Part shown: piece by piece, positions 22,449 through 57,500 of the stretch
Position numbering within the stretch: position 1 is the first letter of the stretch
How the letters are laid out: every line of letters begins with the position of its first letter
From: Myxococcota bacterium
Lineage (GTDB): Bacteria > Myxococcota_A > UBA796 > UBA9615 > JAKLKC01
Assembly (NCBI GenBank): GCA_023150875.1
Contig: JAKLKC010000002.1
Span: forward strand, 1-64,000
Length of the DNA stretch: 64,000 nt
Reading direction: 5' to 3'
Notes under the pieces: generated by a model
Database searches by the model: none
What the model saw: the letters and a program-made list of their open reading frames with translations, nothing else
What the model was told of the DNA's origin: nothing
Position numbers and translations under genes: made by a program

Positions 22449-24605
22449 ATGAAGATCCACTTCGCTCTCATCGCCATGCTCTTCCTCGCCGGGGGCTGCG
22501 CCGAGGAGGCCGCGGACGACGACGCGGCGGCGGACGACGATTCCGGTACCGACGACGACACGGTGCCGGACGACGACTCCGCGGCCGACGACGACACGGC
22601 TCCGGACGACGACACGGCGCCGGACGACGACTCCGCTTCCGATGACGACTCCGCGGCCGACGACGATTCTGCCCCGGACGACGACACCACTCCCGATCCG
22701 GTTGTCACCGACCGGGACGGCGACGGCCACGACGCCATCGAGCACGGGGGAGACGACTGCGACGACTTCGACGCCTGGACCTATCCCGGCGCCCCGGAGG
22801 TGTGCGACTTCGCACATGCGGACAACGACTGCGACGGGGTCGGCGACCTGGACACCGACGCGGACGGCGACGGCCTGGCGGTCTGCGACGACTGCGACGA
22901 CGCCGATCCCACCCGCAACGGCCTGGCGGAGGAGGTCTGCGACGGGATCGACAACAACTGCGACGGCCTGGTGGACGAGGACCAGGACATGGACGGGCAC
23001 GCGGCCTGCGACGACTGCGACAACCGCAGCCCCCTGCGCTACCCCGGCGCGTTCGAGGCGTGCGACGGCATCGACAACGACTGCGACGAAGAGGTGGACG
23101 GGGACGTGGACTTCGATGGCTTCGACGCCTGCGAGGACTGCCGCCCCCTCGATCCCTACGCCTGGCCCGGGGCTCCCGAGACCTGCGACGGCGTGGACAA
23201 CGACTGCGACGGGCTCCTGGACGAGGACGACCCGGACTTCGCCACGGACGCCGACGGCGACGGGGTGCTCTCCCGGGGGTGCGGCGGGGACGACTGCGAC
23301 GACACCTGGGCGGCGACCTGGCCCGGCGCTCCCGAGGTGTGCGACGGCCGGGACAACGACTGCGACGGCAGCACCGACAACGACAAGGACGGCGACGGCC
23401 ACGGAGCCTGCGAGGACTGCGACATCGCCGACCCCGAGGTGTACGACGGGGGGCCGGAGTCCTGCGACGGCAAGGACAACGACTGCGACGGCGTGGTGGA
23501 CGGCGATCAGGACGGGGACGGCTACGGCGCCTGCGAGGACTGCGACTTCGCCGACCCCGACGTGAACGCCGGCCTGCCGGAGTTCTGCGACGGCAAGGAC
23601 AACAACTGCGACGGCGTGGTGGACGCCGACGACCCCACGGTGGACGGCGACCAGGACGACGACGGCGACCTCTCGGCCCTGTGCGGCGGGGATGACTGCG
23701 ACGACACCGATCCGGCGATGCACGGCCTCGACACCGACGGCGACGGGCAGAGCGCCTGCGCCGGCGACTGCGACGACCTCGATCCCACCGTCAACACCAC
23801 GGACCTGGACGGCGACGGGATCCCCGCCTGCGAGGGGGACTGCGACGACTCCGATCCCGACGTGTACCCCTATGCGTGGGAGGAGCCCTCCGACGGGATC
23901 GACAACGACTGCGACGGCCTCGTCGACGGGGCGGACGGCGATCCCGTCTCGCTGTTCTCGTTCGGGGACGATTCGTCGGGGGTAATGGCTTTCACCGGGG
24001 GCTTCACCTTCCCCTTCTGCGGCACGGAGTGGACCCAGGCCTACGCGATCTCCAACGGCCGCATCACCTTCGGGGGGGCGGACACCGACTACTCCGAGAG
24101 CGCCACCGAGTTCCTCGGCACCACCTACCGGGACAGCGTCGCGGGCTGGTGGGACGACCTCACCGGCACCGCGGGGACCATCGCATGGGTCCAGCACGCG
24201 GACGCCGCTGCGCTCCACTTCCGGGGGGTCTCCGAGCTCTCCCCCACCAACTCGAACACCTTCGCCATCGTCCTCAGGGCCGACGGCCGGATCTCCCTCC
24301 ACTACGGGGCGGTGGCGGCGGTGGACGGGATCGCCGGCTGGAGCTGCACCCCCGGCGGAACGGTCCCGGAGACCGACCTGACCGCGGCCGCGGTCCCCAT
24401 CGGCGCCGCGGGGATCGGCATGGGGACCGAGGACGCGGTGTACGAGTCGTTCACCGGGACCGGAGCGGACTCCGGGGACCTGGACGACCGGGGCTTCCTG
24501 TTCTGCGTCAACTCGGGGGAGGACCTGGACGGGGACGGCTGGACCGGGAGGTGCGGCGACTGCGACGACGGCGACGCCGCCACCTACCCGGGTTCGGGCT
24601 GCTGA
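22449..24605 (+). CDS. MopE-repeat lipoprotein with acidic linker and nidogen-like domain
   Basis: Protein of 718 residues. Lipoprotein signal peptide (FALIAMLFLAGGC), then an acidic linker of about 12 DDDxx units (residues ~22-80). About ten MopE-type putative metal-binding repeats follow, each of the form DCDDxDP...EVCDGxDNDCDGxVD, rich in Asp and paired Cys. From about residue 500 there is a beta-rich domain (SLFSFGDDSSGVMAFTGGFTFPFCGTEW, ISNGRITFGG, FAIVLRADGRISLHYG) resembling nidogen-like/PEP-type extracellular domains, then a final MopE-like half repeat. Asp-rich repeats suggest divalent cation binding at the cell surface; the named Methylococcus MopE binds copper, but that cannot be transferred. 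It is a tandem paralogue of the next gene. Start ATG 22449 is dictated by the signal peptide. Confidence 0.8.
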   Translation: MKIHFALIAMLFLAGGCAEEAADDDAAADDDSGTDDDTVPDDDSAADDDTAPDDDTAPDDDSASDDDSAADDDSAPDDDTTPDPVVTDRDGDGHDAIEHGGDDCDDFDAWTYPGAPEVCDFAHADNDCDGVGDLDTDADGDGLAVCDDCDDADPTRNGLAEEVCDGIDNNCDGLVDEDQDMDGHAACDDCDNRSPLRYPGAFEACDGIDNDCDEEVDGDVDFDGFDACEDCRPLDPYAWPGAPETCDGVDNDCDGLLDEDDPDFATDADGDGVLSRGCGGDDCDDTWAATWPGAPEVCDGRDNDCDGSTDNDKDGDGHGACEDCDIADPEVYDGGPESCDGKDNDCDGVVDGDQDGDGYGACEDCDFADPDVNAGLPEFCDGKDNNCDGVVDADDPTVDGDQDDDGDLSALCGGDDCDDTDPAMHGLDTDGDGQSACAGDCDDLDPTVNTTDLDGDGIPACEGDCDDSDPDVYPYAWEEPSDGIDNDCDGLVDGADGDPVSLFSFGDDSSGVMAFTGGFTFPFCGTEWTQAYAISNGRITFGGADTDYSESATEFLGTTYRDSVAGWWDDLTGTAGTIAWVQHADAAALHFRGVSELSPTNSNTFAIVLRADGRISLHYGAVAAVDGIAGWSCTPGGTVPETDLTAAAVPIGAAGIGMGTEDAVYESFTGTGADSGDLDDRGFLFCVNSGEDLDGDGWTGRCGDCDDGDAATYPGSGC

Positions 24606-24768
24606 GGGGGAACCCACCGGCGTCCTCCTACTGCTCCTGGACGGCATCTTTCGGGTGGGCGGGCTTGCCCGCGGACCGTCGAAGATGTCAGGATCCCGTC
24701 AACGATGCGTCGCGCACCCGCGGGCGGGGTGGCGGCGGCCGCGGCATGCGCCGCCGGGGGTCACCAGG

Positions 24769-27654
24769 ATGAGCAGGACGCACGCAGTTTCCTCGTGGTG
24801 GCGGGCGCTTTGCCTCGGGTCGTCGCTGGCGGTGCTGGCGGCGCTGGCGGGATGCGAGGCCCCCGATCCCGAAGACGACGACTCCACCGAGGACGACGAC
24901 ACGGCGCCGGACGACGACTCGACGCCGGACGACGACACCGCCCCGGACGACGACACCGCCCCCGACGACGACACCACGCCCGACGACGACACAACCCCGC
25001 CCGCCGACGCCGACGGGGATGGCTATACCACCCAGGACGGCGACTGCGACGACACCCGCGACTGGATCCATCCCGGAGCGGTGGAGATCTGCGACGGCAC
25101 CGACACGGACTGCGACGGGATCACGCCGGGAACCGAGGTCGACTCCGACGGGGACGGCAGCTCCCCCTGCGGGGGGGACTGCGACGACTCCGACCCCGGG
25201 GTCAACCTCTTCGCCGAGGAAGTCTGCGACGGCAAGGACACCGACTGCCAGGGGGGGCTCGCCTCCGACGAGGTCGACGGCGATGGCGACGGACTGATCC
25301 CCTGTCTCGGGGACTGCGACGACGCCGACGCGGCTGTCATCCCCGGGATCCCCGAGGCGTGCGACGGAGTCGACACCAACTGCGACGGGATCACCCTCCC
25401 GGACGAGTCCGACGCCGACGGGGACGGCTCCCGGGTGTGCGGGGGCGACTGCGACGACGCCGACCCGACGGTTTACGGGGGCGCCGCGGAGCTCTGTGAC
25501 GGCCTCGACCAGGACTGCGATGGTCTCGCGGCGGGGGAGGCCGACGGGGACGGCGACGGGGTGAGGGTGTGCGCCGGGGACTGCGACGACGCCCGGGCGG
25601 ACGTCGCGCCGGGGCGGACCGAGGCGTGCGACGGGGTGGACAACGACTGCGACGACGCGGTGGACGCCAGCGAATGGGACGCCGACGGCGACGGCGTGCG
25701 GATCTGCGCCGGCGACTGCGACGACGCCGATCCCGAGCGGGCCGCCGGCTTCGCCGAGTCCTGCGACGGGGTGGACAACGACTGCAGCGGATCGATCCCC
25801 GCGGACGAGGCGGACGCCGACGCCGACGGAGCGAGGGTGTGCGCCGGGGACTGTGCCGACGGCGACGCCTCGCGACATCCGGGAGCGGACGAGGGCTGCG
25901 ACGGCCTGGACACCGATTGCGACGGCGCCACCCCCGGCGGGGAGCTGGACGGGGATGGCGACGGGCTGGCGGAGTGCCAGGGGGACTGTGACGACGACCG
26001 GGCGGAGGTGCTGCCCGGGGCCGTCGAAGGGTGCGATGGCGTCGACACCGACTGCGACGGGGTCGTCCCGGCGGAAGAGACCGACGGCGACGGCGATGGG
26101 ACGTCGCCGTGCTCCGGCGACTGCGATGACGCGGAGCCCTTGATCCATCCCGACGCGGGCGAGGTCTGCAACGCCGTGGACGACGACTGCGACGGCATGG
26201 TCCCCGGCACCGAGCTGGACGGGGACGGCGACGGGCTGGCGGAGTGCCAGGGGGACTGCGACGACGCCCGAGCGGAGGTGCTGCCCGGGGCGGACGAGAC
26301 CTGCGACGGCGCCGACACCGACTGCGACGGGGCGATCCCCCCGGAGGAGGCCGACGAGGACGGCGACGGGGCCCGGGTGTGCGGCGGCGACTGCGACGAC
26401 CTGAGCGCCGCGGTGGGGCCCGCCGCCCCGGAGGCGTGCGACGGGCTCGACACCGACTGCGACGGCGACGTGCCGGCGGACGAGGCCGATGCCGACGCCG
26501 ACGGGGTGCGGATCTGCGCCGGGGACTGCGACGACGCGGATCCGGGGCGGAACCCCGGGGCGGCGGAGGCCTGCGACGGCCTGGACACCGACTGCGACGG
26601 GGCCGTCCCCACGGACGAAGAGGACGGGGACGGCGACGGGGTCCGGGGATGCGACGGGGACTGCGACGACGCCGATCCCGAGGTGAGTCCCGTCGCCGCG
26701 GAGCTCTGCAACCACGTCGACGACGACTGCGACGCCCTGGTGGACGCCGACGACCCCGACACCGAGCTGGACCTGGACGCCGACGGGGACGTGCAGGTGG
26801 AGTGCGGCGGGGGGGACTGCGACGACGAGGACCCCGCCGTCAACGGGCTGGACGCCGACCTCGACGGGTACCCCACGTGCTGGGGGGACTGCGACGACAC
26901 CCAGGAGGACGTCTTCCCCTACGCCTTCGAGGCGACCGACGGGATCGACAACGACTGCGACGGCATGACGGACGGCGCCGACACCGACGCCGTGTACTAC
27001 CTGACCCTGAGCGACGACTCCGCCGCTTCGGTCTCCTTCGGGAGCTGGCGCTACTCCTTCTGCGGCGCCGAGTGGTCCTCGGTCAACGTGGTGTCCAACG
27101 GGCGCCTCCAGTTCGGCGGCTACTCCACCACCTACTCCGAGACCGTCGCCGAGTTCGTCGGAGCTACCTATTACGAGTCCATCGCCCCGTGGTGGGACGA
27201 CATGTACCCCCCGTCCGGGGCGGTGGCCTACGTCCAGTACCCCGACGCCTTCGGCGTCTACTACCTGAGCGTGGGCCAGTGCTGCGGCACCGACGACAAC
27301 AACTTCTCGGTGGTGCTGCTCGGGGACGGGCGCGCCCATGTCTCCTACGGGAACATGGAGTCCAACGACGGCATCGCGGGCTGGAGCTGCACCACCGGGG
27401 ACGACCCCGGCGAGACCGACCTGACCGCCGCGGCGGACGACCGGCTGCCCACGGCGCTGGGGATCGGCCAGGGCACCGAGGACGCCTACTACGAGCTGTT
27501 CGACGGAGGGGGCGGCGGGTCCAACGACCTGGAACACCAGGGCTTCGTCTACTGCATGGACTCGGGCGAGGACCTCGACGGCGACGGCTGGACGGGGGCC
27601 TGCGGCGACTGCGACGACACCGACGCCGCCGTCCGGCCCGGCGCGGGCTGCTGA
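24769..27654 (+). CDS. MopE-repeat lipoprotein, longer tandem paralogue
   Basis: Protein of 961 residues. Signal peptide with lipobox (LAVLAALAGC), about nine DDDxx linker units, roughly fifteen MopE-type repeats (e.g. GGDCDDADPTVY..AELCDGLDQDCDG), then a nidogen-like beta domain (YLTLSDDSAASVSFGSWRYSFCGAEW, VVSNGRLQFGG, NNFSVVLLGDGRAHVSYG, GWSCTTGDDPGETDL) and a closing CGDCDDTDA repeat. The end domain is clearly homologous to that of the preceding gene (shared GIAGWSCT and TEDAxYE), so the pair arose by duplication followed by gain or loss of repeats. The repeats are Cys-bearing and Asp-rich, consistent with disulfide-stabilised cation-binding stalks. The 163-nt gap upstream shows no clear promoter. 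Confidence 0.8.
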   Translation: MSRTHAVSSWWRALCLGSSLAVLAALAGCEAPDPEDDDSTEDDDTAPDDDSTPDDDTAPDDDTAPDDDTTPDDDTTPPADADGDGYTTQDGDCDDTRDWIHPGAVEICDGTDTDCDGITPGTEVDSDGDGSSPCGGDCDDSDPGVNLFAEEVCDGKDTDCQGGLASDEVDGDGDGLIPCLGDCDDADAAVIPGIPEACDGVDTNCDGITLPDESDADGDGSRVCGGDCDDADPTVYGGAAELCDGLDQDCDGLAAGEADGDGDGVRVCAGDCDDARADVAPGRTEACDGVDNDCDDAVDASEWDADGDGVRICAGDCDDADPERAAGFAESCDGVDNDCSGSIPADEADADADGARVCAGDCADGDASRHPGADEGCDGLDTDCDGATPGGELDGDGDGLAECQGDCDDDRAEVLPGAVEGCDGVDTDCDGVVPAEETDGDGDGTSPCSGDCDDAEPLIHPDAGEVCNAVDDDCDGMVPGTELDGDGDGLAECQGDCDDARAEVLPGADETCDGADTDCDGAIPPEEADEDGDGARVCGGDCDDLSAAVGPAAPEACDGLDTDCDGDVPADEADADADGVRICAGDCDDADPGRNPGAAEACDGLDTDCDGAVPTDEEDGDGDGVRGCDGDCDDADPEVSPVAAELCNHVDDDCDALVDADDPDTELDLDADGDVQVECGGGDCDDEDPAVNGLDADLDGYPTCWGDCDDTQEDVFPYAFEATDGIDNDCDGMTDGADTDAVYYLTLSDDSAASVSFGSWRYSFCGAEWSSVNVVSNGRLQFGGYSTTYSETVAEFVGATYYESIAPWWDDMYPPSGAVAYVQYPDAFGVYYLSVGQCCGTDDNNFSVVLLGDGRAHVSYGNMESNDGIAGWSCTTGDDPGETDLTAAADDRLPTALGIGQGTEDAYYELFDGGGGGSNDLEHQGFVYCMDSGEDLDGDGWTGACGDCDDTDAAVRPGAGC

Positions 27655-29207: not shown

Positions 29208-30920
29208 ATGGCGTCTGGCTTCGCCCTGCTGCTCCGTCCCCGCCTGCTCCAGGCGCGGAACTCGCTCCGACGCGCCGAGCCGCGGCAGCGCTGGGCGTGG
29301 GCCTTCTTCGCGTCCCTGGGAGTCCTGGCTTGGGTGGGGATGCTCGCCCTGGCCCTGTGGCTGCTCCGCTCGTTCCACGGAGTCGAGATCTTCGGGCCCG
29401 TCCTCGTCCGCAAGCTGCTGCAGATGATGCTGTTCAGCTTCTTCGGGCTCCTGGTCTTCTCCAACGTGGTGACGGGGATCTCGGTCCTCTTCCTCTCGGA
29501 CGACATGCAGCTCCTGGGGTCCCTGCCGATCCCCTTCCGCCGCCTGTTCTACGCCCGCTTCGTGGAGGCGGCCGTCGCCAGCTCCTGGATGGTCTTCGTG
29601 TTCGCCCTCCCGGTGCTGGTCGCCTACGGGGTCGTCCACGACGCGGGCGTGGGCTTCTACCTCCTCCTCCCGGCGGTGCTCGCCCCCTTCCTGGCGATCC
29701 CCGCCGCCCTCGGGATCGCCCTGGCCTACCTGCTGGTCCAGGTCTTCCCGGCGCGCCGCACCAAGGAGATCCTCGTCGCGGTGGGGCTGGTCTTCGCGGT
29801 GGCGGTCTTCCTGGGGCTCCGGGCGCTGCGCCCCGAGCAGCTCGTCAGCGCCGACGCCTTCGCGTCCATGGCGGACTTCATGGCCGCCGTGCGGGCCCCC
29901 ACGGCCACCTGGCTGCCTTCCACCTGGGCGACGGAGGTGCTCCTGGCCGGCCTGGGCTCCCCCGCCGACCGGGCCCCTCTCCACGCCGCCGCCCTCCTCT
30001 CCAGCGGCGGCGGGCTGGTGGTGCTGTGCCGCTGGCTCGTCACCCCGGGCTTCTCCAGCGCCTGGACCAAGGCCCAGGAGGCCCGCTCCCCGAAGCTGGC
30101 CCGGCTCCGCCCGGTGGACGCGGCGTTCCGCTTCCTCTTCCGCCCCCTCCCCGCGCCCCTGCGGGCCATGGCCCTCAAGGACGCGCGGATCTTCCTGCGG
30201 GACGCCGGCCAGTGGACCCAGGTCTTCCTGGTGGCCTCGCTGATCGCGGTCTACCTTTACAACGTGCACGCCCTCCCCCTGGAGCAGTTCCCCTTCCCCA
30301 GCTTCCGCCTCGAGAACGTCATCTCCTTCCTGAACATCGGGGTCGCGGGCTTCGTGCTCGCCGCCCTGAGCGTGCGGTTCAACTTCTCGGCGGTCAGCGC
30401 CGAGGGCCGGGCCTTCTGGGTGCTCCACGCCTCGCCGCTGGGCCCGGTGCGCTTCCTGCTCGCGAAGTTCCTGCTGGGGGCCGCGCCCCTCGTGGTCCTG
30501 GGGGAGGTGCTGGTGGTCAGCACCAACCTGATGCTGGACACCGCGCCCGAGGTCTTCGCCCTGAGCGCGTTCTCGATCCTCGGGATCGCCCTCGGGGTGA
30601 CCGGCCTCGCGGTGGGGATGGGGGCCCTCTTCCCGGACTTCAAGGCCGACAACGCCGCGCGGGTGGCGGCGAGCCCGGGGGCGATCCTCTACATGGGGGT
30701 GGCGGCCCTGTTCATCGGCGCCGTGATCGTGCTCCAGGCGACCCCCTTGGTGCTCGTCCTCACGGCGCGGTACCGACTCCAGCCCCTCACGCCCGCGGCG
30801 TGGGCCCTGGCGGGGGTCATGGGCGCTGCGTCCGTCGCCCTGGTGGTGGCGGCGGTGGCGGTCCCCCTGCGCCGGGGCGCCGCGAAGCTGTGGGACGAGG
30901 CCCGCTCGGGGGGAGACTGA
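29208..30920 (+). CDS. ABC-2-like membrane permease (ATPase not adjacent)
   Basis: Protein of 570 residues with about twelve hydrophobic helices in two blocks (residues ~25-250 and ~330-560), separated by a cytoplasmic loop containing RPLPAPLRAMALKDARIFLRDAGQWTQVF. The KDxRxFLRDxxQW pattern and the layout resemble uncharacterised ABC-2 exporter permeases. It starts at ATG 29208, 17 nt after the mlaD-like stop, with GGCTCCGG upstream, so it is probably in the same operon. It is not an MlaE homologue, and no ATP-binding protein follows, so the ATPase may be encoded elsewhere. Substrate unknown. The long ORF starting at 27996 merges it with a shadow frame. Confidence 0.65.
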   Translation: MASGFALLLRPRLLQARNSLRRAEPRQRWAWAFFASLGVLAWVGMLALALWLLRSFHGVEIFGPVLVRKLLQMMLFSFFGLLVFSNVVTGISVLFLSDDMQLLGSLPIPFRRLFYARFVEAAVASSWMVFVFALPVLVAYGVVHDAGVGFYLLLPAVLAPFLAIPAALGIALAYLLVQVFPARRTKEILVAVGLVFAVAVFLGLRALRPEQLVSADAFASMADFMAAVRAPTATWLPSTWATEVLLAGLGSPADRAPLHAAALLSSGGGLVVLCRWLVTPGFSSAWTKAQEARSPKLARLRPVDAAFRFLFRPLPAPLRAMALKDARIFLRDAGQWTQVFLVASLIAVYLYNVHALPLEQFPFPSFRLENVISFLNIGVAGFVLAALSVRFNFSAVSAEGRAFWVLHASPLGPVRFLLAKFLLGAAPLVVLGEVLVVSTNLMLDTAPEVFALSAFSILGIALGVTGLAVGMGALFPDFKADNAARVAASPGAILYMGVAALFIGAVIVLQATPLVLVLTARYRLQPLTPAAWALAGVMGAASVALVVAAVAVPLRRGAAKLWDEARSGGD

Positions 30921-30935
30921 CCATCCATCGAATGG

Positions 30936-31102
30936 ACCATGCCTATCCGGATGCCACCCAGGCCGTTCGTGACGACCGCCAGCCGTCGTGAATGGCTCGC
31001 CGTCCTTGGCTCGCCCACAGAGGCACAGAGCGGCCCGTCCGGGGCCCACAGAGAACACGGAGGGGAGGGCGGGGAGGCCTGGAGCTTCGGGTGGCAAACG
31101 GA
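30936..31102. repeat. Dispersed intergenic repeat, copy 1
   Basis: About 167 bp recur at 53109-53276. A 71-bp core (30994-31064), which includes CCCACAGAGGCACAGAG and CACAGAGAACACGGAGG around a GGCCC-GTCCG-GGGCC hairpin, is identical in the two copies; flanks are diverged. TGACCATCC at 30918 and GGATGGTCA at 31100 form a 9-bp inverted pair just outside this copy, but it is not present at the second copy. It fills most of the 314-nt gap before the vWA gene. Confidence 0.85.
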
Positions 31103-31234
31103 TGGTCAATCATCGAATAAATCGGGAACCCTCCCCGCCGGCCGCTGTCCCAGGTCGGGTGCGCCGGGGGAAACCCGGGAGCCCGTAGGGGCTCCGGGCC
31201 CACGCCCCTCTTCCGGCCAGACGGAGGGTCCGAC

Positions 31235-33178
31235 ATGCGAACGCTTCCCATCTCCATCTCCATCTCCGCGGCGACCTTCGCCCTCCTCACCACCGCGCTG
31301 GTCCTGCCGGGGTGCGGCGGCCACGAGCTCGTCCGCGACGACCCCGGGGCCGCCCGCCCGGAGGCGTCGGACGAGGACGACCGGCGCACGGTCGCCACCG
31401 GCGAGAAGCGCCCCACGGAGGAGCGGGCGCAGGACGCCTCGCCGAAGGACGGGCTGGCCGAGCTGGAGAAGGGCGAGGACGCCTCCACCCGGGGGCCCTT
31501 CCCCGAGACCAGCGCCGTCGTCGCCCCGACCTCCGAGCCGCCCATGGCGGACGTCTCCCGGGACGACGCCCACGCGCGCCAGGCGTCCAAGGAGAAGAAG
31601 TCGGCCGCCCGGGAGTACGCCCTCGGTGGCGCCGGCTACGGCCGTGGGGCGGGCGGGATGGTGGGATCGGCGTCCGCGGTGACGGGCGGCTACGCGCCGC
31701 CGCCGCCGGTGGCCCGCCCCGCCCCCGAGTTCAACACCGAGGCCTACGACCACGTCGCCGACAACGCCTTCGTCGCCGTCGCCGACCAGGCCCTCTCCAC
31801 CTTCTCCATCGACGTCGACACCGCCTCGTACAGCAACGTCCGCCGCTTCCTGGACGGGGGGACCCTGCCCCCCAAGGACGCGGTGCGGATCGAGGAGCTG
31901 GTGAACTACTTCGACTACGACTACCCCGGGCCCCGGTCGGAGCAGCCCTTCGCGGCGGTCACCGAGGTGTCCGAGTGCCCGTGGAACCCCAGCAACCGCC
32001 TGGTCCACATCGGCCTCCAGGGGCGCCGCATCGACATGCAGGACCTCCCTCCCCTCAACCTGGTCTTCCTGCTGGACGTGTCGGGCTCCATGAACTCGCC
32101 GGACAAGCTCCCCCTGGTGAAGCAGGGCATGGCGATGCTGGTGGAGCAGCTCCGGCCCCAGGACCGGATCGCCATCACCGTCTATGCCGGCGCGGCGGGG
32201 CTGGTGCTGCCCTCCACCCCCGGCTCCCAGAAGAGGCCGATCCTGGACGCCCTGGACCGCCTCTCCGCGGGCGGTTCCACCGCGGGGGGCGCCGGGATCC
32301 AGCTCGCCTACCGCATCGCCCAGGACAACTTCCGCAAGGGGGCCGTGAACCGGGTGATCCTCGCCACCGACGGCGACTTCAACGTGGGCACCACCAGCCA
32401 GGGAGACCTGGTGCGCCTCATCGAGGCCAAGCGGGAGAGCGGCGTGTTCCTGACGGTGCTGGGGTTCGGCACCGGGAACCTGAAGGACGCGACGATGGAG
32501 AAGCTCGCCGACAAGGGCAACGGCAACTACGCCTACATCGACAGCGCCGACGAGGCCCGCAAGGCGCTGGGCCGCGAGGTGGGGGCCTCCCTGGTCACCA
32601 TCGCCAAGGACGTGAAGGTCCAGGTGGAGTGGAACCCCCAGCAGGTCGCCTCGTACCGCCTGGTCGGCTACGAGAACCGCATGCTGGCCGCCCAGGACTT
32701 CAACGACGACAAGAAGGACGCCGGGGAGATCGGCGCGGGCCACTCCGTCACCGCCCTGTACGAGGTCGTCCCCGCCGGCCGCGGCACCGCCGGGAGCGGC
32801 GTGGACCCCCTGCGCTACCAGGCCGGGCGTGCCCCCACGGCGGCGGCCTCCAGCGGCGAGATGATGACGGTGAAGCTCCGCTACAAGGAGCCCGAGGGTT
32901 CCACCAGCAAGCTGATCTCCTTCCCGGTGAGCGACCGCGGCAAGGCCTTCGGCTCCACCAGCGATGACTTCCGCTTCTCCGCCGCCGTCGCCGCGTACGG
33001 GATGCTGCTGCGGGACTCCGAGCACCGGGGCCGTGCCGACTTCGGCAAGGTGGAGTCCTGGGCCCGGGGCGCCCTCGGCGAGGACCCCTCCGGGGACCGC
33101 CGGGACTTCCTGCGCCTGGTGGGGATCGCCCGCTCTCTCCAGGGCCAGGACACCGTCGCCGACGTGACCACCCGCTGA
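31235..33178 (+). CDS. YfbK-like vWA lipoprotein (vWA plus DUF3520)
   Basis: Protein of 647 residues, ATG preceded by GGAGGG. A lipoprotein signal (LLTTALVLPGC) precedes a ~150-residue low-complexity stretch. The YfbK architecture then follows: an N-terminal vWA-associated region (FSIDVDTASYSNVRRFLDGGTLPPKDAVRIEELVNYFDYDY), the vWA domain with MIDAS D281VSGS in LVFLLDVSGSMNSPDKLPLVKQGM, and IATDGDFNVGTTSQGDL. The C-terminal DUF3520 region (VQVEWNPQQVASYRLVGYENR, ITALYEV-type strands, TVKLRYKEPEG, FRFSAAVAAYGMLLRDSEHRG) completes it. The family is widespread in envelopes of Gram-negatives and of unclear role, presumably metal-dependent protein binding. It has its own upstream region containing the dispersed repeat. 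Confidence 0.9.
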   Translation: MRTLPISISISAATFALLTTALVLPGCGGHELVRDDPGAARPEASDEDDRRTVATGEKRPTEERAQDASPKDGLAELEKGEDASTRGPFPETSAVVAPTSEPPMADVSRDDAHARQASKEKKSAAREYALGGAGYGRGAGGMVGSASAVTGGYAPPPPVARPAPEFNTEAYDHVADNAFVAVADQALSTFSIDVDTASYSNVRRFLDGGTLPPKDAVRIEELVNYFDYDYPGPRSEQPFAAVTEVSECPWNPSNRLVHIGLQGRRIDMQDLPPLNLVFLLDVSGSMNSPDKLPLVKQGMAMLVEQLRPQDRIAITVYAGAAGLVLPSTPGSQKRPILDALDRLSAGGSTAGGAGIQLAYRIAQDNFRKGAVNRVILATDGDFNVGTTSQGDLVRLIEAKRESGVFLTVLGFGTGNLKDATMEKLADKGNGNYAYIDSADEARKALGREVGASLVTIAKDVKVQVEWNPQQVASYRLVGYENRMLAAQDFNDDKKDAGEIGAGHSVTALYEVVPAGRGTAGSGVDPLRYQAGRAPTAAASSGEMMTVKLRYKEPEGSTSKLISFPVSDRGKAFGSTSDDFRFSAAVAAYGMLLRDSEHRGRADFGKVESWARGALGEDPSGDRRDFLRLVGIARSLQGQDTVADVTTR

Positions 33179-33250: not shown

Positions 33251-33931
33251 ATGCCTTCCCTCCCCACCGCCCCCCTCCCCGCCCTGTTCCTTGCGCTCCT
33301 GGCCGTGTCCGGCTGCCTGCCGGACTTCCCCGGCGACTCCGACGACGACGCCAGCGACGACGACGTGGCCGACGACGACGCGGCCGACGACGACGCGGCC
33401 GACGACGACGCCAGCGACGACGATGCTGCCGACGACGACGCGGCCGACGACGACGCGGCCGACGACGACAGCGGCTCGACGCCCGAAGAGGACCTCGCCT
33501 GGGTGGCGGGGGAGGCGTGGTCCGGCGTCGAGCTGGACCACCTGGACTTCGACGCCACCGCCGAAGCGAACGGCTACTGGGACTGCACCTGGGAGTGGGA
33601 CGTCGCCGGGGACCTGGAGGTCACGCCCACGGGCTCCCTTTGCGAGGAGTGCGCGGTCGTCTTCCACGTCCGGGGAACGCCGCTCCCCGACGACTGCATC
33701 GTGGGTTCCTACGTGAACGACTCCTGGTACGGCATCGAGCTGCTGGGGGATCGGCGCGGCGTCCTCTGGTCCAAGGGGTCGCAGAACGGGGGCTGGACGG
33801 ACTGGTGCGAGGTCACCCTGGACGCCCCGGGGGAGATCCGGTACTTCTGCGCCAACGGCGGATCGGGCACCATCGGGGAAGACAGCGGCTCCTTCACCGG
33901 CGAGGTCGAGGGAACGGCGACGCTCAAGTGA
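33251..33931 (+). CDS. Lipoprotein with acidic DDDxx linker
   Basis: Protein of 226 residues. A lipoprotein signal (LFLALLAVSGC) precedes a linker of about nine DDDAA/DDDAS pentads (residues ~30-75), encoded by near-identical 15-bp units. A compact ~145-residue domain follows (YWDCTWEWDVAGDLEVTPTG, CEECAVVFHVRGTPLPDDCIVGSY, IRYFCANGGSGTIGEDSGSFTGEVEGTATLK). The Cys pairs and alternating strands suggest a small beta-sandwich. No known family was recognised. Its stop overlaps the next start (GTGA), coupling it to the TPR protein and kinase genes. It could be an envelope ligand or sensor for that kinase; this is inference from gene order only. Confidence 0.75.
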   Translation: MPSLPTAPLPALFLALLAVSGCLPDFPGDSDDDASDDDVADDDAADDDAADDDASDDDAADDDAADDDAADDDSGSTPEEDLAWVAGEAWSGVELDHLDFDATAEANGYWDCTWEWDVAGDLEVTPTGSLCEECAVVFHVRGTPLPDDCIVGSYVNDSWYGIELLGDRRGVLWSKGSQNGGWTDWCEVTLDAPGEIRYFCANGGSGTIGEDSGSFTGEVEGTATLK

Positions 33932-46320: not shown

Positions 46321-47274
46321 GGTCCGGCGTCGCGCCGCGGCCAGGGAGGCGATGACCGAGAGGGCCAGCGCCGACGCGGACCCCCCGGGGGTCGCCGCGG
46401 CGCAACGGCAGTCCACGTTCCGGCTCGTGCCCCGCCCTCCGAGATCGTCGTCGTCGTCGGCCGAGACGAAGGTGTCGTCGTCGGAGGCGTCGTCATCCCC
46501 GGTGTCGTCATCGGAGGCGTCGTCGTCGGAGGCGTCGTCGTCGGAGGCGTCGTCGTCGGAGGCGTCGTCGTCGCCACCCGAGTCATCGTCGCTGGCGTCG
46601 TCGTCGCTGGCGTCATCGTCGCTGGCGTCATCGTCGCCGGTGTCGTCGTCGCCGGTGTCGTCGTCGCTGGTGTCATCGTCGGGGTCGACGCCACCCCCCC
46701 ACGTGAGGCGGACGTGGTCCACGGCGTCGTAGCCCACATTGAAGAGGACGACGATGGAGGGCCCCCAGGAGGTCGCCTGGCCGATCCAGCCGTCGGCCAT
46801 CGCCCTTCCGGCGTCCACGGGATAGGAGGCGTCCCCGTCGTACCAGATGTCGTCGGTGGACTGGAGGCCACCCACCCCCACGATATAGCCGTAGCCCGGA
46901 GTCAGTTCCCTCCCGACGGTCCCGGACGAGAAGAAGCCCGTCCCCGCGCTGGCCGTGACGTTCCCGGTCCAGACCAGGCTGAACGTGCCGTAGAGCCCGA
47001 AGGGGACGTAGTCCGGCGACTCGTAGAGGGCGAAGGCGAGGGTCCGGCTCCCCGAGAGGGTCAGGTAGTACTCGAAGCGGTCCAGGACCGCCCCCTCCTC
47101 GACGTAGGCGAGCACCGTGCCCTCGCCCCAGGGGGGCGTGTTCCCACCCGACTGGTAGCTGTTCGAGGCGTCCCCCACCGTCACCGTCTCCGCCGCCGCC
47201 TCGCCGGGGCCGAGGAGGGCCGCGGCGGCGGCGAGGCAGGGAAGGGGCCAGGACGGAATCCGCGGGTACGACAC
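46288..47274 (-). CDS. Secreted DDDxx-linker protein with MYXO-CTERM-like tail
   Basis: Protein of 328 residues from GTG 47274 (GGGGGAG upstream; an ATG ten codons earlier is possible). Signal peptide LPCLAAAAALLGPGEAAAET, then a ~180-residue beta-rich domain (TVTVGDASNSYQSGGNTPPWGEGTVLAYVEEGAVLDRFEYYLTLSG, LAFALYESPD, FFSSGTVGRELTPGYGYIVGVGG, IVVLFNVGYDAVDHVRLTWGG). Next comes an acidic linker of about 16 DDDxS/T units encoded by 15-bp repeats, then CRC followed by a hydrophobic helix (ALALSVIASLAAA) and RRR, which resembles a MYXO-CTERM sorting tail. Surface localisation is likely; function unknown. It follows the FHA gene by 62 nt. Confidence 0.72.
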   Translation of the reverse strand: MSYPRIPSWPLPCLAAAAALLGPGEAAAETVTVGDASNSYQSGGNTPPWGEGTVLAYVEEGAVLDRFEYYLTLSGSRTLAFALYESPDYVPFGLYGTFSLVWTGNVTASAGTGFFSSGTVGRELTPGYGYIVGVGGLQSTDDIWYDGDASYPVDAGRAMADGWIGQATSWGPSIVVLFNVGYDAVDHVRLTWGGGVDPDDDTSDDDTGDDDTGDDDASDDDASDDDASDDDSGGDDDASDDDASDDDASDDDASDDDTGDDDASDDDTFVSADDDDDLGGRGTSRNVDCRCAAATPGGSASALALSVIASLAAARRRTSGRPGLGESA

Positions 47275-51851: not shown

Positions 51852-52730
51852 ATGCGCCCGGTGAACCGCGACAAGGCGATCCTCTGCTGCGCCCTCTCCG
51901 GGGTGGTGGCCAACAAGTCCCAGTGCCCGGCGATCCCCTACACCCCCGAGGAGTACGGCGAAGAGGCCCGGCGCGCCTACGAGGCCGGGGCGGCGATGGT
52001 CCACATCCACGCCCGGGAACGGGACGGCACCCCGTCCTACCGGAAGGAAAGCTACGCCGAGATCCGCGACGCGATCCTGGCGCGCTGCCCGGACGTCGTG
52101 ATCAACTTCTCCACCGGCGCCGTGGGCGTCCCCCTGGAGCAGCGGATCCACCACGTCCGGGACCTGAAGCCCGACGTCGGCGCCCTCAACATGGGCTCGA
52201 TGAACTACGCGAAGTACAACCCCCGCAGGAAGTCGTTCGTCTTCGACTTCGTCTTCGCCAACCCCTTCTCCGAGATCGTCTGTCAGCTCGAGGCGATGCG
52301 GGACGCGGGGGTGCTCCCGGAGCTGGAGTGCTTCGACGGCGGGCACGTGTCGTCGGCCCTCCCCCTCATCGACATGGGCCTTCTCCGGGCTCCCTTCCAC
52401 TTCTCGCTGATCCTCGGCGTCGTCGGCGGGGCCGAGGCGAGCACCGAGAGCCTGGTCCACGAGGTCCGCCTGCTCCCGGACGACAGCAACTGGGAGGTCA
52501 TCGGGGTCGGCCGCGACCAGTGGCGCCTGTGCGCGGGGGCCCTGTCCATGGGGGGCGACGTGCGGGTCGGGCTCGAGGACAACTTCTACCTGCCCGACGG
52601 GCGGATGGCGGGGTCCAACGGCGACCTGTGCGCCGCCGCGGCCAGCCTGATCCGCCTGACGGGGCGGGAACCCGCCACCCCCGCCGAGGCGCGGGAGATC
52701 TACGGGATCGCGAGGAGGTCCGAGGCATGA
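51852..52730 (+). CDS. Beta-keto acid cleavage family enzyme (BKACE, DUF849)
   Basis: Protein of 292 residues. BKACE enzymes are Zn-dependent TIM barrels that condense a beta-keto acid with acetyl-CoA and split it into acetoacetate and a new acyl-CoA; the founding member is 3-keto-5-aminohexanoate cleavage enzyme of lysine fermentation. Visible motifs: CALSGVVANKSQCPAIPYTPEEY, the Zn-ligand pair in MVHIHARERDG (H51, H53), VINFSTGAVGVPLEQR, NMGSMNYAKYN, PELECFDGGHV and VGLEDNFYL. The specific acyl substrate cannot be read from these. It is flanked by an enoyl-CoA hydratase (upstream) and a biotin-carrier protein whose start overlaps its stop. Confidence 0.92.
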   Translation: MRPVNRDKAILCCALSGVVANKSQCPAIPYTPEEYGEEARRAYEAGAAMVHIHARERDGTPSYRKESYAEIRDAILARCPDVVINFSTGAVGVPLEQRIHHVRDLKPDVGALNMGSMNYAKYNPRRKSFVFDFVFANPFSEIVCQLEAMRDAGVLPELECFDGGHVSSALPLIDMGLLRAPFHFSLILGVVGGAEASTESLVHEVRLLPDDSNWEVIGVGRDQWRLCAGALSMGGDVRVGLEDNFYLPDGRMAGSNGDLCAAAASLIRLTGREPATPAEAREIYGIARRSEA

Positions 52731-52942
52731 GCAAGGAGATCCGGGCGGAGATCACGGGGACGGTGTGGAAGGTCCACGTCGCGGCCGGCCACGTCTTCGC
52801 GGCGGGGGAGGAGCTGGCGATCCTGGAGTCCATGAAGATGGAGATCCCCGTAGAGCCCGAAGAGGGGGGCACCGTGGCGGAGGTGCGGATCCGGGAGGGC
52901 CAGGCGATCCAGGAGGGGGACGTGATGTTCGTCGTGGAGTAG
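52727..52942 (+). CDS. Stand-alone biotin carboxyl carrier (biotinyl-lipoyl) protein
   Basis: Protein of 71 residues comprising only a biotinyl domain: EIRAEITGTVWKVHVAAGHVFAAGEELAILESMKMEIPVEPEEGGTVAEVRIREGQAIQEGDVMFVVE. Lys37 in ESMKME is the biotinylation site. Such one-domain carriers serve acyl-CoA carboxylases whose biotin carboxylase and transferase subunits are encoded elsewhere, e.g. in branched-chain acyl-CoA degradation clusters. The ATG overlaps the BKACE stop (ATGA). No carboxylase subunit is present nearby, so its partner is unknown. Confidence 0.92.
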   Translation: MSKEIRAEITGTVWKVHVAAGHVFAAGEELAILESMKMEIPVEPEEGGTVAEVRIREGQAIQEGDVMFVVE

Positions 52943-53057: not shown

Positions 53058-53108
53058 TCGTTCACCTGCCCCCACCCGCATCCCGCCCCGCCTCCCGGCC
53101 CTGGCGAC

Positions 53109-53276
53109 ACCATGCCTGTCCGGCCGTTTCCCAGGGCGGTTCGTGACGACTGCCGGCCGGCGTAATAGGCTCGCCGTCCTTGGCTCGCCCACAGAGGCAC
53201 AGAGCGGCCCGTCCGGGGCCCACAGAGAACACGGAGGGAAGAGCGGGGAGGCCTGGAGCTTCGGGCGGCGAACGGA
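53109..53276. repeat. Dispersed intergenic repeat, copy 2
   Basis: Second copy of the element at 30936-31102, same orientation, with a 71-bp identical core (53168-53238) and a related left flank (ACCATGCCTGTCCGG vs ACCATGCCTATCCGG). It ends about 25 nt before the glycosyltransferase stop codon, so it may lie within that operon's 3' untranslated region. Confidence 0.85.
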
Positions 53277-53300
53277 GAGGCGTGGGCGACTCCACGCGAG

Positions 53301-54506
53301 TCAGCCCCGCCGGGCCTCCACCGCCGCCCCCAGCGCGTCGCGCATCGCTTCGGCGGCGGCGTCCCAGGTCCGGTCCCGGGCGAAGGCCCGGCCCGCGGTC
53401 CCCAGGCGGTCCCGCAGGGCGTCGTCCGCCAGGCATCGCAGGACCGCCCCCGCGAAGGCCTCCGCGCCGTCGGCGACGAGCGCCTCCCGGCCGTCCCGGA
53501 CGGGAGTGCCCTCGGCGCCCACCGCGGTCGAGACCACCGCGCGGCCGGTGGCGAGGGCCTCCAGCAGCTTCAGCCGCGCGCCCCCCGCCACCCGCAGCGG
53601 GATCACCTCCACCCGGGCCCGCAGGCGCCAGGGCGTCACGTCCTCCACCTCCCCCACCCACTCTACGCCGGGTCCGCCGAGCGCCCGCGCCGCCCCACCG
53701 GGCCGCCGCCCCACCACCGTCAGGACGGCGCCGGGGCGGCGCGCCTGGACCCGGGGCCAGACGTCTCCGATGAACCACCGGAGCCCGTCCAGGTTCCCCC
53801 GCCAGTCCAAGGCCCCGATGAAGACGACGCGGTCGGGATCCCCCGGCCCCTCCACCGCCGGCAGGTCGGCGAGGCCGGCATCGACCCCGTGGGGCACCAC
53901 CGCCACCCGCCGCGCACCCATGCCCTCGAACGCCCGCGCGTCCTCCCGGGACACCGTGACCACCAGGTCCGCGCCCCGGGCGGCGCGCCGCTCCATGCGC
54001 TCCGTCCGCCGGGCCTGGAGGCTCCACGCGAGGCGGCGGGGGAGGTCCTCCGCCACCCCCGCGGCCCGCCGGGCGATCTGCCCCTCGACGTTGTGGGCGT
54101 GCAGGACCCGGGCGGCGGAGCCGGCGAGGGCCAGGTAGGGGGCGACGTGCAGGTACTCCGCCACCACGGCTTCGGGACGGCGACGGCGCGCCTCCCGGAG
54201 CACCGCCGCCGTCGTGCGCGCGCTCGCCAGGCGGGCGGCGGTCCACGGCAGGCCGGTGAGGGCCGCCCGCACCGCCGTGCCCACCGCCGCCGGTCCGGGG
54301 CCGAGGCCATTGCGCTCCACGCCCACGGACCCGGGGAACCGCTCCCTCATCGCCGCCGCGCCCACCGCCTCGGAGGGGCGCCAGGCGAAGACGATCCCCA
54401 CGTCGTCCCAGCGGGCGAGGCGGCTCCAGATCTCCAGCGCGCGGATCTCGCCGCCGCCCCGGGCGGGCAGGAAGGGGCGGGGGGCGAGGACGAGGACCCG
54501 GGTCAC
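53301..54506 (-). CDS. GT4-type glycosyltransferase
   Basis: Protein of 401 residues from a GTG whose last bases overlap the giant gene's stop (GTGA). GT-B layout: N-terminal domain RVLVLAPRPFLPARGGGEIRALEIWSRLARW and LHAHNVEGQIARRAAG; C-terminal donor domain RVVFIGALDWRGNLDGLRWFIGDVWPRVQARRPGAVLTVVGRRPGG, VEVIPLRVAGGARLKLLEALATGRAVVSTAVGAEGTPV (the E-x7-E-like donor segment). It resembles sugar transferases associated with exported or PEP-CTERM-type loci (stp1-like) by eye. Cytosolic, using a nucleotide sugar. Coupling to a large surface protein suggests a role in its modification or in surface polysaccharide, an inference from gene order. Confidence 0.87.
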   Translation of the reverse strand: MTRVLVLAPRPFLPARGGGEIRALEIWSRLARWDDVGIVFAWRPSEAVGAAAMRERFPGSVGVERNGLGPGPAAVGTAVRAALTGLPWTAARLASARTTAAVLREARRRRPEAVVAEYLHVAPYLALAGSAARVLHAHNVEGQIARRAAGVAEDLPRRLAWSLQARRTERMERRAARGADLVVTVSREDARAFEGMGARRVAVVPHGVDAGLADLPAVEGPGDPDRVVFIGALDWRGNLDGLRWFIGDVWPRVQARRPGAVLTVVGRRPGGAARALGGPGVEWVGEVEDVTPWRLRARVEVIPLRVAGGARLKLLEALATGRAVVSTAVGAEGTPVRDGREALVADGAEAFAGAVLRCLADDALRDRLGTAGRAFARDRTWDAAAEAMRDALGAAVEARRG

Positions 54507-57500
54507 TCGTCCACGAAGCCGTCGCAGTCGTCGTCCCGGCCGTTGGGGACCTCCAGGGCGCCGGGGCGGACGTCGGCGCGGGTGTCGTCGCAGTCCCCGC
54601 CCGCCTCAGTGAAGCCGTCCCGGTCGTCGTCGTAGGCCGTCGTGCCCTCGTCCACCCGACCGTCGCAGTTGTTGTCGACGCCGTCCATGACCTCGGCGGC
54701 GCCGGGATAGACGTCGGCGAGGCCGTCGTTGCAGTCCCCCTGGTTCTCGCTGCGCCCGTCGCCATCGTCGTCCCGCAGGACCGTGCCCTCGTCGACGGTG
54801 CCGTCGCAGTCGTCGTCCAGGCCGTTGGCCAGCTCGGTGGCGCCGGGGTGGATCGTCGGCACGGCGTCGTTGCAGTCGCCCCCGGCCGGGCCCCAGCCGT
54901 CGCCGTCGGCGTCGTCCGCCCCCGTGGCCGTGCCGTCGCAGTCCCAGTCCAGGCCCGGGCCCCCATCGGGCGCGCCGGGGTACACGTCGTCGTCGCTGTC
55001 GTCGCAGTCCCCCTCGTCCTCGCTGTAGCCGTCGTGGTCGTCGTCGGAGGCCCGGGTCCCCTCGTCGGTCAGCCCGTCGCAGTCGTTGTCCAGCCCGTCC
55101 CCCGAGGCGTCCCCCGCCCCTCCGTCCTCGGGCGCGCCGGGGTACACCGTGGGATCCCCGTCGTCGCAGTCCCCGCCCACCTCGCTGTAGCCGTCCAGGT
55201 CGTCGTCCGAGTCCTCGGTCCCCTCGTCCGTCAGCCCGTCGCAGTCGTCGTCGACCCCGTTGGAGACCTCGGTACCCCCCGGGAAGACGTCCGCATCGGC
55301 GTCGTTGCAGTCCCCGCCGACCTCGGCGTGCCCGTCCCCGTCGTCGTCGTAGTTCTCGGTCCCCTCGTCGACGGTCCCGTCGCAGTCGTTGTCGAGTCCG
55401 TCCGCCAGCTCCGGGGCGCCGGGATGGCTGTCCGCGTCCCCCTCGAAGCAGTCGGCGCCGCACGCGTACCCGTCGCCGTCGAGGTCGAAGCCCTGGTGGT
55501 GGGTGGCCGTGCAGTCGTTCCCGTACAGCGGCACGTCCACCAGGGGGCGCGCGGCGTCGTCGGTCTCGATGACCAGGGAGCCCGCGGCCGCCGCGACTTC
55601 CGCGGGGGCGAACGTCACCGTCAGCACCAGCTCCTCCCCCTCCCGGAGGGCCAGCGGAAGAGCGCCCACGGAGGCGGGCAGGCTCACCGAGAACGCCTCC
55701 CCCGACTCCACCTCGGCCCGGAGCAGGTTCAGGTCCGCGACGCCCTCGTTGCGGACCGTCACCGAGGCGTGCTGGGGATCCCCGGGCTCCACGGGGCCGA
55801 AGTCCACCAGGGCCGGGTAGACCGCGAGGGCGCCGGACCGGGCGGACCCCCGGAGCACCAGCTCCTGGGAGCCCTCGGCCCCCTGGGCGTTGATGTTGAT
55901 CGTCAGCACCGCCCGGTCGTCCCCCTCGATGCGGGGGTGGTACGCCACCTGGATCTGGGCGACCTCGCCGGGGCCGATGTCCCCCTCGATCCCCGTGACG
56001 ACCTCGAAGTCCCCCCCGGGATCGTCCAGCACCAGACCGAGGACGGTCATCGTCCCCGAGCCCGCGTTGTCCAGGAAGACGTCCCGCACCGGGTCCGAGC
56101 CCACCAGCACCGCGCCGAAGTCCACGATGTCCGGGGTGATCCGCAGCTCGGGGGTGGACGCGTTGATGTTGACGTCGGTGCAGCCGGGGAGGGCCAGCAG
56201 CGCCACGGCGGAGACCACGGCGGCGCGGGGAAACGTTCTGCGCCGCCGCAGGGGGATCAGCAGGCCCAGGGCGAGCCCCGCGGCGAGGCCGCCCCCCTGC
56301 CCGCGGCCCCGGGAGTCGCACCCGCCGCAGTCGCCCGGGTCCACCTCGCCGTCGCCCTCCGAGTCGTCCCCGCAGCCGGGGTCCACCTCGCCGTCGCAGT
56401 CGTTGTCCATCCCGTCGCAGTCCTCGATGGCATCGGGGTTCGTGAACGCCTCCGCGTCGTCGCAGTCCCCCTGGTCCTCGCTGTGGCCGTCCCCGTCGTC
56501 GTCGAAGGCGTCGGTCCCCTCGTCGGTGACCCCGTCGCAGTCCTCGTCCACGCCGTCGGCGACCTCGCCCGCGCCCGGGTGGACGTCCTCGTCCGCGTCG
56601 TCGCAGTCCCCCTGGTCCTCGCTGAAGCCGTCGCCGTCGTCGTCGGACTGGGAGGTCCCCTCGTCCACGCGCCCGTCGCAGTCGTCGTCCACTCCGTTCA
56701 CCTCCTCCTCCGCGTCCGGGTGGATCCCGGGGTCCCCGTCGTGGCAGTCCCCCTGCTCCTCGCTGAAGCCGTCCCCGTCGTCGTCGCTCGCCACCGTCCC
56801 CTCGTCGACCTCGCCGTCGCAGTCGTCATCCACCCCGTCCGCCTCCTCCGGGGCGCCGGGGTAGGCGCTGGGGTCGTCGTCGTCGCAGTCCCCGCCCGCG
56901 GGGGCGTACCCGTCGCCGTCCCCGTCGGCGGTGTCGCTCACCCCTCCGTCCACCACCCCGTCGCAGTCGTTGTCGACGCCGTCCAGCACCTCCACCGCGC
57001 CCGGAGAGACCAGGGGATCGCCGTCGTTGCAGTCCCCCGCCACCTCGGAGTAGCCGTCCCCGTCGTCGTCGTAGAGCTCGGTGGTCTCGTCCACGACCCC
57101 GTCGCAGTCGTTGTCCGCCCCGTCGGGCAACTCCACGGCGCCGGGGTGCGTGTCGTCCCGGGCGTCGTTGCAGTCGCCGCCGGACTCGGCGAAGCCGTCG
57201 CCGTCCTCGTCGGTGCCTCCGGTGCCCTCGTCGATGGCCCCGTCGCAGTCGTCGTCGACGGAGTTCGACAGCTCCGGGGCGCCGGGGTGGACCTCGTCGT
57301 CGGTGTCGTCGCAGTCCCCGGCGTCCTCCGAGTACCCGTCGCCGTCGTCGTCCACGTCGGGGGCGCCCTCGTCGGTGAAGCCGTCACAGTCGTTGTCGAT
57401 CCCGTCGTCCAGCTCCGGGGCCCCGGGGTACACGGTGGGATCGGAGTCGTCGCAGTCCCCGGAGAGCTCCGTGGCCCCGTCCCCGTCGTCGTCCCACGCG

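Follow-up and report, generated by a model that had tools for sequence, protein, structure and literature searches.

The repeat that occurs twice in the window, by which we mean the whole stretch of 64,000 nucleotides analysed here, is a non-autonomous IS1595-type MITE of 174 bp, which adds a new family to a known class of mobile elements and is dispersed in about 46 copies over a genome of 6.9 Mb (the G000 assembly, 6.92 Mb in 180 contigs). The best explanation of the observations as a whole, to which we assign a probability of about 0.92, is that the element was mobilized in trans by an IS1595-type transposase, settled in intergenic spaces, and kept its core. An intergenic repeat that had lacked an explanation can thus be assigned to a recognized type of mobile element, for which both the transposase and the target site can be tested.

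The positions of the element and its parts are listed in Table 1. The earlier note had placed a dispersed intergenic repeat at 30936-31102, which began 2 bp early and stopped 8 bp short of the element as delimited by alignment, and its statement that two copies share an exact core was borne out by a stretch of 71 bp without a single difference. When the region was compared with the window by BLASTN, one further copy was detected (53109-53276, 89% over 168 bp, E 3e-59). The region search of G000 yielded at least 40 copies, 40 being the number of candidates scored, and the alignment of these 40 copies spanned 174 bp. The core 22-mer GGCTCGCCGTCCTKGGCTCGCC, with up to two mismatches allowed, was found at 46 places in G000 (reversed control, 0) and at most once in any other genome of the class; the outcome that the earlier note had named as refuting, namely only two copies in the genome, therefore did not occur. 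The element was absent from 57 relatives of the same order and class, none of the genomes compared belonging to the same family, and its paired ends were absent from 283 other genomes of the phylum. Since frameshifting indels between the copies break every reading frame, the element has no conserved coding and no transposase gene.

Table 1. Features of the two window copies, their neighbouring genes and the loci of a sister family
Feature	Position	Strand	Remarks
Copy 1 of the 174-bp MITE (family A)	30938..31110	+	40-copy alignment; 5.8% from consensus
Left terminal inverted repeat (TIR) of copy 1, CATGCCTATCCGGATGCCACCCA	30938..30960	+	genome pattern count; ends of ISAcr1-like ISs
Right TIR of copy 1	31088..31110	-	diverged; canonical inward reading ATTGCCTATCCGTTTGCCGCCCA
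Left 8-bp flank of copy 1, GAATGGAC	30930..30937	.	no match to right flank; 3/8 bases agree
Right 8-bp flank of copy 1, CATCGAAT	31111..31118	.	same 8 bp also 4 bp further out on the left (30926-30933)
71-bp core of copy 1	30994..31064	+	identical in both window copies
Most conserved stretch, GGCTCGCC-GTCCTT-GGCTCGCC	30994..31015	+	element positions 58-79, counted with the gap in copy 1
First heptad pair, CACAGAGG-CACAGAG	31016..31030	+	8-bp spacing; CACAGAG at 31016 and 31024
Hairpin GGCCC-GTCCG-GGGCC	31032..31046	+	between the heptad pairs
Second heptad pair, CACAGAGAA-CACGGAG	31047..31062	+	9-bp spacing; CACAGAG at 31047, CACGGAG at 31056
Copy 2 of the MITE	53111..53284	+	
71-bp core of copy 2	53168..53238	+	
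Left target duplication of copy 2, GGCGACAC	53103..53110	.	7/8 bases agree
Right target duplication of copy 2, GGCGACTC	53285..53292	.	
Predicted gene left of copy 1	29208..30920	+	ends 17 bp before the element
Predicted gene right of copy 1	31235..33178	+	lipoprotein-like start, 647 aa
Predicted gene left of copy 2	52727..52942	+	
Predicted gene right of copy 2	53301..54506	-	copy 2 between convergent genes
Family B loci	G000:C103:177002-177165 (L065:2000-2170); C17:1480-1643 (L079); C152:14573 (L077); C156:20114 (L074)		

Both ends of the element carry imperfect TIRs of about 23 bp, and the TIR pattern, with up to three mismatches allowed, occurred at 99 places in the genome as against 6 for the reversed control. 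The 8-bp flanks of the copies agreed at 72.2% of their bases compared with 35.9% when the partners were permuted (2000 permutations, maximum 45.3%), and this agreement fell to about 31% or less once one side was slid by a single base. The target consensus, GWWSSWWC, is a palindrome, and copy 1 is a copy without a clear target duplication. A length under about 600 bp, TIRs, target duplications of fixed length, and many dispersed copies, all of which characterize MITEs, were thus found together. The raw flanks had initially suggested an IS4/Tn5-type element with 9-bp duplications, a reading abandoned when the alignment gave 8 bp and IS1595 ends.

A scan of published genomes with the TIR pattern gave seven places, which by our estimate is about the chance level, and two of these, in a single Rhodobacteraceae MAG, led to the IS1595 family: an exact match was located there beside the start of the transposase of an ISAcr1-like element. 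ISAcr1 (two records) and the ISs of Tardibacter and Sphingopyxis were found to possess ends of the form C(T/G)TGCCTATCCG(G/C)TT and exact 8-bp duplications, the length reported for the IS1595 family (PMC8101967, PMC12561309); the other members of the family that were sampled (Methylocella, Xanthomonas, ISEc70 and ISPepr2) have different ends. Within the class to which the window belongs, a PF12762 transposase of genome G022 is bounded by ATGCCTATCCGGTTG ends, outside which TCAGGCAT is duplicated exactly; a related transposase of genome G293 has GGTGCCTATACGGTT ends and the duplication TTGCTCAA. The TIR motif of the group, TGCCTATCCGG.TG, is common to the present element, ISAcr1, the Tardibacter, Sphingopyxis and Rhodobacteraceae elements, and that of G022. 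As the ends and the duplication length are shared with ISAcr1-like ISs, the element was filed as a non-autonomous IS1595-type MITE and not as a REP/RAYT repeat, and an IS1595-family transposase probably moved it.

Searches of the 180 contigs of G000 with PF12762 and with the ISAcr1 protein did not find an IS1595 transposase, and the partner was therefore either lost or not assembled. Partner transposases of MITEs are often lost, and a partner in the same genome is not strictly required. Possible long copies in G000, with TIRs 1.6 kb apart or on contigs ending in TIRs, were rejected as members of the sister families described below or as contig breaks, and contained no transposase.

At least two further short families, B and C, share the ends of the element in G000 and have 8-bp duplications, e.g., GACCACGG and CGGTGAAC; they were probably mobilized by the same enzyme as family A. 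Family B is about 165-170 bp long with an interior rich in CGTGCCCGAGCCCGTGCCC and ends as in family A, and its copy at L077 adjoins a family A copy and shares the GAAGGAAC duplication of the latter. Short members of family C, also with family A ends, were seen at L067 (C100:81958), L075 (C158:33555) and L063 (C178:13703), the first of which is flanked on both sides by the duplication CGGTGAAC. Another dispersed palindromic repeat, GAACTACGAAACACGCGAAAGG...CCTTTCGCGTGTTTCGTAGTTTCAAC, was present in the flanks of L004, L020, L021, L029, L135 and L140, and family A insertions were observed into or beside it, those in L004 and L135 at GTTTCAAC.

Both window copies lie between predicted genes, and none of the copies in the genome overlapped a gene predicted by the approximate gene finder, a simple codon-usage program made for this analysis, in keeping with the intergenic character proposed in the earlier note. 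The 36 classifiable copies occupied 17 convergent, 16 co-directional and 3 divergent spacers, compared with 3, 25 and 12, respectively, among a small baseline of ordinary spacers from the same genome (convergent excess, p 1.5e-4; divergent deficit, p 0.022). Avoidance of promoter regions would account for this convergent bias as well as a function at 3' ends would. The window also contains long genes (22449-27654 and 54503-61465) in which Asp-rich units of the CDGxDNDCDG type are encoded by many repeats of 132-141 bp, and further Asp-rich tracts at 33331-33493 and 46445-46690.

Taken together, we propose that a transposase supplied in trans would bind the CATGCCTATCCGG-type ends, which are observed, whereas the enzyme and its action are inferred, and that insertion at GWWSSWWC-like sites would generate the 8-bp duplications seen around the copies. 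The copies would then settle in intergenic spaces, often between convergent genes, as the approximate gene calls indicate, and their ends would drift after insertion while the core, above all GGCTCGCC-N6-GGCTCGCC, would be retained, in line with the pattern of divergence observed.

The greater conservation of the core relative to its flanks, noticed at first in the two window copies, was found to hold across the 40 aligned copies. With the four heptad A/G sites left out, divergence between copies was 0.073 at positions 57-128 and 0.203 elsewhere, TIRs included, corresponding to a 2.8-fold lower divergence in the former (0/5000 column permutations). From the youngest to the oldest 16 copies, divergence rose from 6.7% to 31% in the TIRs and from 7.9% to 21% in the arms, and positions 58-79 stayed near 3%, a contrast that is partly built in, as copy age was judged by TIR and arm divergence, and that includes six old copies (L247-L252) found via the core and hence biased for positions 58-79. 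In the 14 old copies that were not found via the core, divergence was 1.3% at positions 58-79, 7.6% at positions 80-128, 23% in the TIRs and 15% in the arms (for positions 80-128, Wilcoxon p 1e-4 and 0.0035). The intact positions 58-79 of old copies with decayed TIRs thus argue for retention after insertion, not for recent copying. Among the three causes that the earlier note had offered for the identical core, selection gives the best fit; gene conversion is a less likely possibility, and recent copying is the weakest, as copies with decayed ends keep the core.

We give about an even chance to the view that the inserted copies are under purifying selection, perhaps acting on a hairpin at transcript 3' ends or on a protein-binding site, and our best guess at the role of the core is likewise a 3'-end hairpin or a putative binding site. 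Neither a terminator-like site nor a terminator tail was found in the element, and the core gave no sign of coding, as judged from indels, or of covariation. In the viral contig IMGVR_UViG_3300032242_002783, the exact core 22-mer GGCTCGCCGTCCTTGGCTCGCC was present (L171:2219-2240) with no adjoining TIR or CACAGAG, an occurrence unexpected by chance.

The identity of the element as a MITE would stand equally if the core had been homogenized by gene conversion between copies and not by selection. Incompatible neighbouring sites were fewer than in shuffles (22 of 2000), linkage falls with distance, and conservation is centred near the middle of the element, the region in which overlap of conversion tracts would be greatest. 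The old copies, however, retain the older haplotype CGCAGAG/T95 (often with A105) and not the now common CACAGAG/C95/G105, and selection in place is therefore favoured, leaving gene conversion a doubtful though still serious account of the core. It is unlikely, too, that the core is conserved only as a requirement of transposition, such as an internal binding site, in copies made at different times: MITEs with internal host-factor sites are known, e.g., the IHF sites of Correia elements (PMC10969869), but copies without recognizable TIRs, which are presumably dead, keep the core while their arms decay. We consider it improbable that the element carries a structured non-coding RNA family, for although the consensus RNA folded better than shuffles (z -3.7, helped by the TIR stem) and several core changes preserve G-U pairs, there was no Rfam match, no pair was changed on both sides, the covariation score was no better than that of shuffles, and the strand showed no preference relative to co-directional genes (9 same versus 7 opposite). 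If selection does keep the core, dozens of inserted parasites may serve between the genes of one genome.

The CACAGAG-type words and the GGCCC/GGGCC hairpin, both pointed out previously, were confirmed in the core, and the arms around this hairpin proved to be direct and not inverted repeats. The four heptads of the MITE agree in flavour, i.e., in A or G at the variable site, in most of the 40 copies (22 AAAA and 12 GGGG; r2 0.58-0.80), and, as in what we term CRCAGAG arrays, they have 8- and 9-bp spacing and one flavour throughout. Such words also occur independently of the MITE in relatives and in many viral contigs, in agreement with the statement in the earlier note that similar words are found elsewhere: exact CACAGAGRCACAGAG was present in 10/284 genomes of the phylum (reversed control near zero), one relative alone having 18 occurrences; a longer form occurred 5-6 times in G000 outside the MITE; and the 24-mer form CACAGAGRCACAGAGRACACRGAG was detected in 65 IMG/VR stretches with varied surroundings, where the chance expectation is estimated to be far below 1. 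Among 85 distinct array sites, classified by A or G in each heptad, 42 were all-A and 28 all-G compared with 17 and 6 under independence, and an inverted partner lay within 300 bp downstream (32-214 bp) in 29/82 arrays and upstream in 4, counts that are partly non-independent owing to shared viruses or lineages and come in part from a viral collection that may hold bacterial DNA. Our literature search for the CRCAGAG words, both as DNA and as translations, found no paper describing them.

Several individual arrays may be recorded here. Those of the GAACCACAGAGACACAGAGRACACRGAG type outside the MITE were located at G000:C55:114070, C91:86696, C103:155781, C103:235130 and C124:45574 (L147-L151), two of which, C124 and C103:235130, are accompanied by an inverted counterpart at a distance of 150-200 bp. 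In two genomes of the same class (G038 and G019), inverted CACAGAGGCACAGAG arrays separated by about 165-240 bp delimit elements that start with GAACCACAGAG (L108, L115, L123 and L132). Six IMG/VR contigs (L176, L185, L191, L213, L218 and L220) contain two opposite arrays at the same 510-bp spacing with near-identical sequence between them, and probably represent one viral lineage in which a small gene lies between the two arrays.

The MITE core looks like a CRCAGAG array with an inserted hairpin and may share a common origin with the other arrays. We regard as speculative, and on balance unlikely, the reading in which the array is a signal for one kind of factor in unrelated bacteria and phages, selected in any background including dead MITE copies, with the A and G forms shifting together because the factor, or a shared copying process, demands agreement. 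A puzzle has been isolated: the centre of a MITE outlives its ends and carries a word that is found in other genomes and viral contigs in two internally consistent flavours.

For the repeat as a whole, it had been suggested that REP-associated transposases be sought, and REP/BIME-type palindromes moved by a RAYT (Y1, IS200-like) transposase would indeed be short, intergenic and hairpin-bearing like the element, in a genome that has two Y1_Tnp genes; this attribution is highly improbable, since the element has IS1595 ends and, like a DDE transposon, TIRs and 8-bp target duplications, and neither of the two PF01797 genes has a copy of the element within about 1.5 kb. A chance segmental copy, which the presence of only two copies within the window might have suggested, is refuted by the approximately 46 copies, which are spread over many contigs and have TIRs and target duplications.

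Comparison with known systems places the IS1595-type MITE closest to ISAcr1 and its related ISs, with which it shares ends of the form TGCCTATCCGG(T/A)TG and 8-bp duplications; the ISAcr1 duplication GAACGTTC fits the target consensus of the element. Unlike the element, which is 174 bp long, non-coding and without noticed internal similarity, ISAcr1 measures 1080 bp and contains a transposase. The REP/BIME/REPIN repeats with RAYT are likewise short intergenic hairpin repeats, whereas the element has target duplications, DDE-type ends and no adjoining RAYT. The Correia elements of Neisseria (PMC10969869) resemble it in being short, TIR-bounded, dispersed and mostly intergenic, and they contain internal functional sites, but they have other ends and another host, and the centre of the present element is better conserved than its TIRs. 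Finally, the CRCAGAG arrays elsewhere share with the MITE the form CACAGAGR-CACAGAGRA-CACAGAG, the 8-/9-bp spacing and the A and G flavours; they differ in having no IS1595 ends and, in some cases, an inverted partner downstream, whereas in the MITE two direct heptad pairs flank a hairpin.
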